NCBI RefSeq assembly: GCF_013912005.1
Contig: NZ_JACESB010000003.1
Location: 124,001-188,000 of the forward strand
Source: Brevundimonas sp.
GTDB lineage: Bacteria; Pseudomonadota; Alphaproteobacteria; Caulobacterales; Caulobacteraceae
DNA length: 64,000 nt
Direction: 5' to 3'
A program made the translations under genes and the position numbers. Each line of letters starts with the position of its first letter. Within the stretch, counting starts at the first letter, position 1. Shown piece by piece: positions 2,698 through 45,378 of the stretch. The notes beneath the pieces are model-generated. The model searched no databases. It was given only the letters and a program-made list of their open reading frames with translations, and was not told where the DNA came from.

Positions 2698-2819
2698 GAC
2701 CGGCGGGCTTGCCGCCGGTAAGATCGGGTTAACCTTGCCGCCGCAAGGCTGACTCAAAGAACCGCGAGTCTGACGGCAGCGGCCGCGCGAGTCGGCCGCG
2801 CCGCCTTCGGAGCCAGAGC

Positions 2820-3431
2820 ATGCACCGCCGCCAGATGATCCTTTCGGGCCTCGCCGCCAGCGCCGGCGTGTCGGGCCTGTCCGCCTGCGCCTCGAACGGA
2901 CCGGCCGATCCCAACTATCCGATCCGCTCCGACCAGACCGCCCCGGCCTACACCGCAGACGAACTGATCGCCGCCGGCTCGCGCGAGCTGGGCATCGCCG
3001 CCGAGGCCATCGGCGGGGCCATCGAACGCATCTTCGCCGACCAGGGCGACCGGCCGACCGCCTACATCGCCGGCGAGGAGGCCGCAGGCGCGGTCGGCGT
3101 CGGCCTGCGCTACGGCCGCGGGGCCCTGCACATGAAGGACCTGTCCGCCTCGCAGGAGGTGTTCTGGCAGGGCATCTCCATCGGCTGGGACGTCGGCGGC
3201 AACGGCAGCCGGGTCTTCACCCTGGTCTACGGCCTCTACCACCCCGACATGATCTATCGCCGCTACCCCGGCGTGGAGGGCTCGGCCTATCTGGTCGGCG
3301 GCCTCGGCGTGAACTACCAGCGCGCCGACGGCATCGTCCTGGCCCCGATCCGCACCGGCGTGGGCCTGCGCCTCGGCGCCAACGTCGGCACCATGGCCTA
3401 CAGCCGCCAGCGGAACATCCTGCCGTTCTGA
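2820..3431 (+). CDS. DUF1134 (EipA-like) envelope protein
   Basis: A 203-aa exported protein of the DUF1134 family. The named member is EipA of Brucella, a periplasmic protein needed for envelope stress resistance; Caulobacter relatives are reported to be important for growth. The N-terminus has two arginines and a hydrophobic stretch ending in LSAC at residues 20-23, which fits a lipobox, so this copy may be a lipoprotein rather than freely periplasmic. The conserved core (about 45-203) is rich in glycine and aromatic residues, consistent with a small beta structure. The 122-bp gap after pheT contains a CCTTGC/GCAAGG hairpin and a GGTTAACC-like element, suggesting its own promoter. It converges on the SDR gene across the heptamer repeats. 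Confidence 0.85.
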   Translation: MHRRQMILSGLAASAGVSGLSACASNGPADPNYPIRSDQTAPAYTADELIAAGSRELGIAAEAIGGAIERIFADQGDRPTAYIAGEEAAGAVGVGLRYGRGALHMKDLSASQEVFWQGISIGWDVGGNGSRVFTLVYGLYHPDMIYRRYPGVEGSAYLVGGLGVNYQRADGIVLAPIRTGVGLRLGANVGTMAYSRQRNILPF

Positions 3432-3452
3432 GCTGGCGGGCGGGGTGGCGGG

Positions 3453-3504
3453 TAGTGAATGGTGAGTAGTGAATAGTGAGTAGTGAATAGTGAGTAGTGA
3501 GTAG
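3453..3504. repeat. Heptamer tandem array, left arm (TAGTGAR x7)
   Basis: Seven consecutive 7-base units of the form TAGTGAA or TAGTGAG (one variant, TGGTGAG at 3460-3466), plus a partial TAG. The array begins 21 bases after the stop codon of the DUF1134 gene. It is the reverse complement of the array at 3570-3635, so the two arms could pair into a very long stem. Confidence 0.95.
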
Positions 3505-3569
3505 CAGTTGGTTCCGAAAGGCGCCGACCATGTTGTCGGCCGCTTGGGATTGAAACTTCCCACCCCCTT

Positions 3570-3635
3570 CTACTCACTATTCACTATTCACTATTCACTA
3601 TTCACTATTCACTATTCACTACTCACTATTCACTA
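3570..3635. repeat. Heptamer tandem array, right arm (YTCACTA x9)
   Basis: Nine consecutive units of TTCACTA or CTCACTA, preceded by a partial CTA. The arm is the inverted counterpart of 3453-3504, separated by about 65 bases of ordinary sequence. The last six codons and the stop of the minus-strand SDR gene lie inside it. The units contain three G or C out of seven, so both arms are strikingly AT-rich against the background. Confidence 0.95.
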
Positions 3636-4518
3636 ACTCCCGCTCACCAGCCAGCATCGCCTCCAGCCCCTCGCGCCAGCTCGGATAGCGCGGTCGCCAG
3701 CCCAGTTCGGCCTTGGCCCGGGCGTTCGAGAGGCGCTTGGAGTCGCGGTAGAAGCGGCGCATGGCGTCGCTGACCGAGGGGTCGTCCAGCGAGACCTCCG
3801 GCGGATTCGGCAGGCCCAGCCGCCGGGCGGCGCCCTCGATGACCACATCGGCCGGGGCCGGCTCGTCGTCGCACAGGGTGTAGGCGCGGCCCGGATGTGG
3901 CCGGGCCATGGAGGCGAAGAAGCCGGCGACCGCGTCCTCGGCGTGGATGCGGTTGAAGACCTGGCCGGGCTTGCGCACGATCCGCGCCGTGCCGTCGCGC
4001 AGCCGGTCGAGCGGCGAACGGCCGGGGCCGTACAGGGCCGGCAGGCGGAAGATCTGCACCGTCAGGCCCATGCCCCGGCCGGCGTCGAGCCAGTCCCGCT
4101 CGGCCCGCACGCGGCGGGCGCCCTCCAGGGAGGCGGCGTTCAGCGGATCGTCCTCGAAGGCCCAGCCGCCGGCGCGGTCGCCGTAGACGGCGGTCGAGGA
4201 GACATAGCCGATCCAGTCCGTCCAGGCCCCGGTCCGGGTGATCGCGGGAGCCAGACGCTGGAGCCCCGGACAGCCCGCCGGCCCCGGAGGCGCCGTGACG
4301 AGGATGGCCGCGGCGTCCGCGACGGCCCGGTCCAGCGCCCCCTCGTCGTCGGGGTCGACGGCCGCAAGCCCCTCGGCCGTCAGCGCCTCGCGCCGGAGGG
4401 GGTCGCGGCTGGTCAGCGTCGCCCGCCCGCCGCGCCGGATCGCCTCGCGGGCGGCGGCGCGGCCCAGCCAGCCGCCGCCGAAGACCAGCAGGGACACAGT
4501 CGCGGAGGATCCGGTCAT
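3619..4518 (-). CDS. NAD(P)-dependent SDR / epimerase-like protein
   Basis: A 299-aa extended short-chain dehydrogenase-like protein. A Rossmann nucleotide-binding motif FGGGWLGRAAA lies near residues 13-23, the active-site-region Ser-Thr appears in GYVSSTAVYG, and a conserved IFRLPALYGPGR segment follows; these match the NAD-dependent epimerase/dehydratase superfamily (YeeZ-like subgroup). The canonical YxxxK is not obvious, so the reaction is unknown. It starts six bases after the sqdB stop and is surely co-transcribed with it, so a role in nucleotide-sugar or sulfolipid metabolism is an inference from context. Its last residues (ELVNSE) and stop codon are formed by the heptamer repeat, so the original C-terminus was probably altered. 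Confidence 0.85.
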   Translation of the reverse strand: MTGSSATVSLLVFGGGWLGRAAAREAIRRGGRATLTSRDPLRREALTAEGLAAVDPDDEGALDRAVADAAAILVTAPPGPAGCPGLQRLAPAITRTGAWTDWIGYVSSTAVYGDRAGGWAFEDDPLNAASLEGARRVRAERDWLDAGRGMGLTVQIFRLPALYGPGRSPLDRLRDGTARIVRKPGQVFNRIHAEDAVAGFFASMARPHPGRAYTLCDDEPAPADVVIEGAARRLGLPNPPEVSLDDPSVSDAMRRFYRDSKRLSNARAKAELGWRPRYPSWREGLEAMLAGERELVNSE

Positions 4519-4524
4519 CGCGCC

Positions 4525-5760
4525 TCAGGCCGAGCGCACATGGGCCGCCGCGGTCACCGATGCGATCGCCGCCGGCTCGGTCTTCAGGGCCTCGGCGCGC
4601 TTGCTGTTCCAGCTGGAGACGCACGGCACCTTGGACAGGTCGGCGCGATCCGCATAGCGGCGGGCGATCTCGGTGACCTCGTCCAGCAGGCCCTGCTGCA
4701 GGGTGATCGGCTTCAGCCCGAGGTCGCGGAACTGGTCGTTGGCCACCACCAGCTCGTTCTCGTCGGCTTCCTGGCGCGGGTTCGGCACATTGTGCACCTC
4801 GACCCCGGTCATCTCCGAGATCAGGCCGGCGAGATCGCGGACGCGGCGGCTCTCGGTCATCTGGTTGAGAATCTTGACCCGCTCGCCGGACTTCGGCGGG
4901 TTCTTCAGCGCCAGCTCGACGCAGCGCACCGTGTCCTGGATGTGGATGAAGGCGCGGGTCTGGCCGCCGGTGCCGTGGACCGTCAGCGGATAGCCGACCG
5001 CCGCCTGCATCAGGAACCGGTTCAGCACCGTGCCGTAGTCGCCGTCGTAGTCGAAGCGGTTGATCAGCCGCTCGTCCTGGCGGGTCTCCTCCGTCTGGGT
5101 CCCCCAGACGATGCCCTGGTGCAGGTCGGTGATCCGGAGGCCGTCGTTCCGGGCGTAGAACTGGAACAGCAGGGCGTCCTGGGTCTTGGTCATGTGGTAG
5201 ATCGAGCCCGGGTTCGGCGGGAACAGGATCTCCTGCTCGGTCGGGCCGTGGTCCGTGTCGACGGTGACCTTCAGATAGCCTTCCGGAATCCGCAGTCCGG
5301 CGGTGGTGTAGCCGTAGACGCCCATGGTGCCGAGGTGGGCGAGGTGCACGTCGCGCCCGCTCTCGACGATCGCGGCCAGCAGGTGGTTGGTGGCGTTGAG
5401 GTTGTTGTCGACCGTGTACAGCTTGTGCCGCGCGGACTTCATCGAATAGGGCGCGGCGCGCTGTTCGGCGAAGTGCACCACGCTGTCCGGCTTCCAGTCG
5501 CGGATCAGGGCGACCAGCCGGTCGAACTCCTTGCCGACGGTCATGTTGACGAATTCGATGGTCCGGCCCGAGATCTCGCGCCAGGCGGCGAGGCGCTCGC
5601 CCATGGTGCGGATCGGGGTCAGCGACTGGACCTCGAGTTCGTTGTCGATGTTGCGGCGGCTGAGGTTGTCGACGACCAGCACATCCCAGCCGCGCGCGGA
5701 CAGGTGCAACGCCGTGGGCCAGCCGCAGAATCCGTCGCCGCCCAGAACCAGTACGCGCAT
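4525..5760 (-). CDS. sqdB: UDP-sulfoquinovose synthase
   Basis: A 411-aa SDR enzyme that converts UDP-glucose and sulfite to UDP-sulfoquinovose, the head-group donor for sulfolipid SQDG. The NAD-binding motif GGDGFCGW sits at residues 7-14, and the catalytic residues of the SQD1/SqdB family are visible: Thr145 in HLGTMGVYG, Tyr188 and Lys192 in SIYHMTK. The long, family-specific N-terminal half (NIDNE at about 37-41) and the HFAEQRAAPYSM segment match SqdB closely. The ATG is preceded by an AGAGGA ribosome-binding site. No sulfolipid glycosyltransferase is present here. Sulfolipid is a known membrane lipid of Brevundimonas, which supports the organism call. Confidence 0.95.
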   Translation of the reverse strand: MRVLVLGGDGFCGWPTALHLSARGWDVLVVDNLSRRNIDNELEVQSLTPIRTMGERLAAWREISGRTIEFVNMTVGKEFDRLVALIRDWKPDSVVHFAEQRAAPYSMKSARHKLYTVDNNLNATNHLLAAIVESGRDVHLAHLGTMGVYGYTTAGLRIPEGYLKVTVDTDHGPTEQEILFPPNPGSIYHMTKTQDALLFQFYARNDGLRITDLHQGIVWGTQTEETRQDERLINRFDYDGDYGTVLNRFLMQAAVGYPLTVHGTGGQTRAFIHIQDTVRCVELALKNPPKSGERVKILNQMTESRRVRDLAGLISEMTGVEVHNVPNPRQEADENELVVANDQFRDLGLKPITLQQGLLDEVTEIARRYADRADLSKVPCVSSWNSKRAEALKTEPAAIASVTAAAHVRSA

Positions 5761-45186: not shown

Positions 45187-45230
45187 AAAAAAGCCCGCCG
45201 CGGGGGATACGTCGCGGCGGGCTTTCTTTT
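45187..45230. terminator. Bidirectional Rho-independent terminator
   Basis: An 11-bp stem AGCCCGCCGCG / CGCGGCGGGCT (45192-45202 with 45213-45223), with a run of A on the left and TTCTTTT on the right. On either strand a U-tract follows the stem, so it can end both the peptidase mRNA and the hisS mRNA. Confidence 0.93.
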
Positions 45231-45378
45231 CGCTCTCTGAGGAGCGGACGTTTCCTCCCCGAAACGCCTCCGGGCGGCTGCGGCGTCTTCACGCCGCGCT
45301 TCCCGAGTGACGACAGAAAGACGACAAATTTCGGCTCAAGTCAATCGACTGGCGCTCGGCGGCTCCGGATTTTCCTTT

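Follow-up and report, generated by a model that had tools for sequence, protein, structure and literature searches.

Two facing arrays of heptamer repeats lie at the junction of two convergent genes, one for EipA and one epimerase-like, in the window (the whole 64-kb stretch of DNA that was analysed; Table 1). Both arrays have period 7, their G-rich strands point inward, and they can pair without gaps over 52 nt at 92% (3453-3504 with 3584-3635) or, in a second pairing, over 61 nt at 89%. The AT content of the arms is 62% and 68% in a window of 71% GC. The preliminary description of facing heptamer arrays about 65 bases apart, AT-rich in GC-rich DNA and able to form a stem of about 50 pairs, is confirmed by these values. 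The period-7 score reaches 25 and 50 at the arms and at most 9 elsewhere in the window. Also, 16 of the 17 matches in the window to the pattern TAGTGARTAGTGAR (up to 3 mismatches) are inside the facing arrays, as against a mean of 1.37 and a maximum of 4 in shuffled windows. The RNA fold of 3425-3660 has an energy of -145.8 kcal/mol (z -18.2) on the forward strand and -129 kcal/mol (z -13.4) on the reverse strand, and on both strands an equally low energy was found in 0 of 200 shuffles. On querying with the loop (3500-3572, 73 bp) only the self-match was returned from its own genome at E<=0.001, on which an origin of the loop from another place in this genome was rejected; across the 131 genomes of the genus the same query gave one weak 33-bp match, in one other genome. 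The array had been placed exactly between two 3′ ends. The genes are indeed convergent, but the array is not strictly between them, since the right array encodes the last residues and the TAG stop codon (3619-3621) of the reverse-strand epimerase-like gene; the EipA stop codon is upstream of the array and is not supplied by it. For the epimerase-like protein, the matches in the 29 best relatives extend no further than residue 289-293 of a query of 295 aa, and the element most likely now provides the stop codon of this gene.

Table 1. Features of the window and the further facing copies in the same genome, the latter given as contig and position (IVP, 23S rRNA intervening-sequence protein)
Feature	Position	Strand	Basis
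EipA (envelope integrity protein A)	2820..3431	+	PF06577, E 5.9e-64
Left array, TAGTGAR, 7.4 units, one of them TGGTGAG	3453..3504	+	Tandem Repeats Finder, pattern matches, pairing
Loop, 65 bp, without IVP gene	3505..3569	.	Profile and sequence matching
Right array, YTCACTA, 9.4 units; TAGTGAR again when read on the - strand	3570..3635	-	Tandem Repeats Finder, pattern matches, pairing
NAD-dependent epimerase-like gene	3619..4518	-	PF01370, E 6.8e-7
CrfA sRNA match (Caulobacter sRNA family)	45187..45308	-	RF01527, 56.7 bits vs cut-off 38
Additional facing copy	C7:58.6k
Additional facing copy	C34:111.1k
Additional facing copy	C34:114.3k
Additional facing copy	C27:8.9k
Additional facing copy, short	C25:3.06k
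Additional facing copy, short	C12:29.5k

The genome of the window (2.89 Mb in 42 contigs) has seven facing TAGTGA-type arrays when the window copy is included. A single copy with a length fixed across strains had been named beforehand as the outcome that would make an expansion element unlikely; as to copy number, the seven copies here, together with related arrays elsewhere in the genus and in further phyla, support the suggestion of a dispersed element. On the same count a lone slippage array was rejected. It may be noted that the copy on C12 (L436) is at groES/groEL and that groES is also named among the repeat-associated genes of Xanthomonas (PMC4692102), so this junction may be a repeat target. 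The two short copies have arms of 13-14 bp, and when facing arrays with a loop of 10-40 bp were searched for, only the C25 copy came out. The loops of the copies in this genome look unlike one another. Four copies separate codirectional household genes (groES/groEL, rpmD/rplO, dnaN/recF and ftsW/murG), because of which an element that stops transcription would be costly there. A genus-wide count with 3 mismatches gave 47 of 131 genomes, which is unspecific because a reversed control pattern also matches many genomes.

At some arrayed loci the arms are separated by 430-480 bp. In the ORFs of five of the eight long-loop loci that were translated (L068, L069, L089, L095 and L097) we recognised what we take to be the IVP family (PF05635, 'four helix bundle protein', about 125 codons), and the other three were without it. 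In its full form the element has a G-rich heptamer array, an IVP gene and a complementary array, together about 450-520 bp, and it occupies gene junctions at the loci examined. In the genus set of 131 genomes (one per species), PF05635 was found in 68 genomes with 118 match rows. After setting aside seven fragment rows at five loci, of which four retain both arms, 110 loci with 111 IVP copies were used. Facing complementary arms with a score of at least 14 surround 98 of the 106 copies with complete flanks (five copies with cut-off flanks being excluded), while control windows shifted by 700-900 bp at the same loci gave 0 of 31. A separate pass over the genus copies gave 99 of 107, and random window pairs gave 0 of 587 in a pass that excluded four copies with cut-off flanks. 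Period 7 is present on both sides of the IVP gene in 64 of 106 copies and no other period is; periods 4-6 and 8-12 were found on both sides in 0 of 107 genus copies. In other families of the class, facing arms surround 14 of 16 IVP genes (shifted controls 0 of 16), two of 18 loci having been dropped as the genus model found no gene there. In other phyla the number is 19 of 30 (shifted controls 0 of 30) for loci that were the best-scoring ones and not a random draw; the other 11 are without facing arms, and period-7 runs on both sides are seen in only nine of the 30. Thus in this genus the IVP genes sit between facing heptamer arrays, and the case for an IVP-heptamer family of elements is strong here.

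The two arms of an element carry the same unit. With at most one mismatch allowed, the left and right units agree in 101 of 109 copies, as against about 10.6% on random pairing (109 of the 157 copies were used, as 48 lack clear runs on both sides); there are 31 different left units in the genus alone. The polarity is also nearly constant, G outnumbering C on the left strand in 102 of the 109 IVP-bearing copies and in 50 of the 53 genus copies without a gene. The 111 IVP copies fall at 21 sites after merging. Over 20 sites the IVP identity and the unit distance are correlated with r=-0.43, and 0 of 20000 permutations were as low (the merging from 25 to 21 sites changed the Mantel r from -0.50 to -0.43). 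For pairs from different sites, the units are within one mismatch in 109 of 217 cases if the IVP identity is at least 65%, and in 109 of 2386 if it is below 55%. By eye, the GTG-type and the AGGG/AGGC/GGTGT-type units form two large clades of the IVP tree. In 102 whole-gene alignments the homology between sites extends at most 78 bp to the left and 93 bp to the right of the IVP gene, limits that coincide with the arms or the arm ends. Hence units and IVP types are associated across unrelated sites, and what copies at different sites have in common does not reach beyond the arrays. Within a site the unit can still vary: at site 1 it is AGGCAGT, AGCAGGC, AAGTAGG or AACAGGC, and both arms can change together. 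One locus (L231) has AGGGCTT outside and GGCAGTA inside in the left arm and GGCAGTA only in the right arm, possibly a snapshot of unit replacement.

The IVP genes that are broken or internally deleted retain both arms and thereby form a bridge to the gene-less copies. The series runs from a loop of 393 bp with a frameshifted IVP gene through loops of 309, 253 and 206 bp in which pieces of IVP remain to loops of 124 to 20 bp with no trace of IVP, both arms being kept throughout. Among 53 distinct gene-less facing copies at the genus loci fetched, 44 have loops without a relative among the others, which is unexpected if they were plain deletion derivatives of one source. The other nine comprise four copies of one orthologous site and five with a common loop that are spread over three sites or more. 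A loop around GCCGCCCTTCCGC is common to gene-less copies at several sites (L442, L445, L364, L365 and L084), possibly a subfamily that moves as a unit. The relation of gene-less arrays to the cognate IVP was scored as GGCAGTA x3 outside the IVP loci of each genus genome. All 12 genomes with an IVP of this unit have such arrays, compared to 14 of 56 whose IVPs have a different unit and 6 of 63 that lack IVP (12 of 12 against 20 of the remaining 119), with mean numbers of matches of 14.8, 1.48 and 0.44, respectively; these values are to be read with GGCAGTA picked as the commonest unit after the unit table had been inspected, with one genome (G143) scored as cognate despite a different unit in its outer left array, and with matches inside IVP loci subtracted for the 12 cognate genomes only. 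The presence of these arrays in six IVP-free genomes counts against reading them as copies of an IVP element. After correction for descent on an aguB tree (110 of 131 genomes), six independent pairs are left, with on average 3.9 in agreement and 0.0 in opposition (median p 0.125); if 4 matches are taken as the threshold, the opposing pairs number 0.3, and for any IVP 2.2 of 15 pairs agree and 0.2 oppose. Gene-less arrays of one unit are therefore enriched in genomes with an IVP of the same unit, and the direction is kept after descent correction in a test that is then underpowered.

The own genome of the window has three IVP copies, without perfect TAGTGAR arrays. The nearest one (L243) contains in its arms GTGAAAAGTGCTAGTGAGC, which is common to the gene-less C25 copy, and its IVP groups in the clade with GTG-type units. 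At the window site itself, IVP is absent from all 30 orthologous loci compared (29 relatives and the own one), which gives no support to descent of the window copy from an IVP-bearing copy. Facing arrays are clear in four of the 29 relatives, all with other units (L347, L362, L364 and L365); one has an array remnant (L352), one is interrupted by an N run (L368), and the remaining 23 are empty, have other sequence as filler or, in two cases, lack the EipA neighbour. A different palindrome of REP-like look, close to GGCGCTAACGCTCGCGACGCGGTCGCTCGCTGCTTGAGCGC, is present at the site in seven relatives (L353, L360, L363, L367, L372, L373 and L374). Most likely the element has no host function here and is tolerated between the convergent genes.

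The fold, which is highly stable on both strands, could also be read as an RNA signal of the host, i.e. a transcript hairpin kept by RNA selection as a bidirectional terminator, an RNase III site or an mRNA stabiliser, and the related 23S rRNA intervening sequence (IVS) is indeed cut by RNase III (PMC4990558). Selection on the transcript would leave a preference for G-U over A-C among the arm mismatches on the sense strand. Yet these are balanced, with 136 G-U and 163 A-C in 144 elements (144 of the 157 copies were used and 13 left out) and 20 against 25 when counted by site (p 0.55). Since the mismatches have no sense-strand G-U excess, upkeep at the level of DNA is favoured over RNA selection. 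Also, a search of 2700-4700 for intrinsic terminators (a short GC stem followed by a T run) gave 0 sites. With the copies within the four household gene pairs and the four occupied sites among 29 relatives, which have different units, the earlier idea of a transcription terminator found no support, and we consider a host RNA signal very unlikely; as the main reason for the arrays it was rejected on the mismatch balance, the lack of a terminator-like site and the codirectional-gene copies.

The aguA/aguB junction is seen both with and without the element. In 22 of 30 loci the junction is empty, with the aguA stop and aguB start overlapping (TGATG), and in five an IVP element of 456-484 bp lies precisely between the two codons. 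The junction is occupied in the own genome of the window and empty in the nearest relatives by aguB identity, which may be a gain or a precise loss. Three other loci (L419, L424 and L429) have a different insert of 370 bp at the identical junction. At some copies, L213 among them, the right array is by eye apparently translated as an N-terminal extension of aguB, and the IVP stop overlaps the aguB start. Such precise empty sites, together with inverted ends, small size, several copies and homology bounded by the element, are what would be seen with an ordinary MITE mobilised by a classical transposase, IVP being its cargo, and the window feature too is short and gene-less with terminal inverted repeats. 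But no target duplication is visible by eye on comparing the five occupied with the 22 empty loci. The ends, moreover, are arrays that vary in length and unit and the loops are mostly unrelated, which makes a MITE highly improbable.

The unit of the window is widespread. In GTDB contigs from many phyla, at least 118 stretches contain TAGTGAR x3, and of 80 listed loci 24 are inward-facing pairs, eight are pairs on the same strand only, 48 are single arrays and none faces outward. Among the matches listed, 47 of 50 genomes with TAGTGAR x3 have IVP, while a sample of the class has it in 16 of 289 (15 of them above the cut-off and two in the genus of the window), a rough contrast since the two genome sets differ in taxonomy. 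IVP is also present in 43 plasmid records, of which many are from cyanobacteria, and a single query of phage records (E 1e-5) gave no match. Heptamers in intergenic arrays are known from cyanobacteria as STRR, and the likeness to them noted in the preliminary description was a good hunch, as the IVP genes on Calothrix, Nostoc and Geminocystis plasmids are likewise surrounded by facing heptamers. Two Calothrix plasmids give no evidence of a jump because the whole neighbourhood is common to both. In two homologous Nostoc plasmid copies the heptamer number differs by one; this fits slippage, as does the count of two or three heptamers, depending on the strain, in Coxiella (PMC4990558).

Slippage with template switching in the hairpin may even be sufficient, in which case short inverted repeats grow by replication error and the IVP gene is a chance passenger. 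The mismatches without G-U bias, the unit change in place at site 1, the single-heptamer difference in Nostoc and the 44 of 53 gene-less loops that are mutually unrelated all agree with this. A chance passenger, however, would hardly be enclosed by arms in 98 of 106 copies, nor would the unit follow the IVP type across unrelated sites and gene-less GGCAGTA arrays follow the cognate IVP, and we hold replication error alone to be unlikely. The reading that we prefer, with a probability of roughly two in three, is that the feature in the window belongs to the IVP-heptamer element family as a copy without the gene. It has one heptamer in two facing arrays with the G-rich strands inward, and its membership rests on unit, polarity and company; because its 65-bp loop has no IVP match, it can be only a gene-less copy. 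Gene-less copies would arise through loss of the IVP gene, or spread in trans via a cognate IVP. Slippage would lengthen the arrays, and hairpin-templated DNA copying would keep the arms identical, a step suggested by the replacement of whole units on both arms and by mismatches that have no RNA-strand bias. The IVP, as a relative of Avd, an accessory protein of retroelements and partner of their reverse transcriptase, may bind the heptamer DNA or its transcript and drive the spread, which is the weakest step. A telomere-like variant is suggested by the G-rich strand running inward from both flanks with and without IVP (102 of 109 and 50 of 53 copies): heptamers would be added to both 3′ ends of a chromosomal break and the ends then joined, mostly with different loop fillers, while IVP guides a host or element polymerase that copies a heptamer template, and a trapped IVP gene would make the full element. 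We regard this as decidedly unlikely; if true, the IVP-heptamer elements would be a class of mobile elements without transposase.

Of the known systems, the 23S rRNA IVS is similar to the IVP-heptamer element in its protein family, its inverted ends and the tandem heptamers before the gene (PMC4990558). In Coxiella burnetii the IVS has an S23p/IVP gene, inverted ends that form a 28-bp stem, and tandem GACAGAT heptamers before the gene whose number depends on the strain; the gene has a 176-bp deletion in one strain (PMC4990558). It differs in lying within 23S rRNA helices whereas the present elements lie between protein genes, as does the window feature between EipA and the epimerase-like gene, and for the IVS the sections of PMC4990558 covered here make no mention of heptamers in two arms, of diverse units or of dispersed copies that lack the gene. 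For the protein, PF05635 and Avd are alike in sequence and structure, and diversity-generating retroelements, whose Avd/bAvd the IVP resembles, depend on Avd for retrohoming (PMC10053308); the own IVP (L243) matches bAvd PF22296 with E 7.7e-5, below the curated cut-off, and the solved structures related to IVP are 2gsc and 2rld. A CRISPR-discovery survey has the 23S rRNA IVP in a figure legend (PMC10910872), and such a pipeline might be detecting heptamer arrays next to IVP. Our searches of the open-access literature revealed no paper that ties IVP genes to facing arrays of heptamers other than in rRNA.

The convergent GGGAATC heptamers of Xanthomonas (70 pairs in Xcc and 75 in Xac, largely intergenic, of variable length and near groES too; Rehm 2015, PMC4692102) are likewise facing, G-rich and intergenic. 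They have been interpreted as G-quadruplex sites (PMC4692102); TAGTGAR, in contrast, has no GG run. The main text of that paper reports no general link to mobile elements and does not mention S23, four helix or intervening. The TAACTGA repeats of Beggiatoaceae form intergenic arrays, mostly upstream of start codons (PMC4679880), and together with the cyanobacterial STRRs they resemble the window arrays as intergenic heptamers scattered over phyla. The TAACTGA sets differ in being nearly all direct, and 23S rRNA, four helix and intervening go unmentioned in the main text of PMC4679880. IVP is a common protein family that is tied here to heptamer arrays in one genus with controls, extending to other phyla, and through this tie its role becomes directly testable as a gain or lengthening of arrays of its own unit. 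The intergenic heptamers of bacteria (cyanobacteria, Xanthomonas and Beggiatoaceae) have been described piecemeal and without an owner, for which the IVP element is a candidate, and the IVP-heptamer family joins three known pieces, namely the 23S rRNA IVS, the facing heptamers of Xanthomonas and the cyanobacterial STRR.
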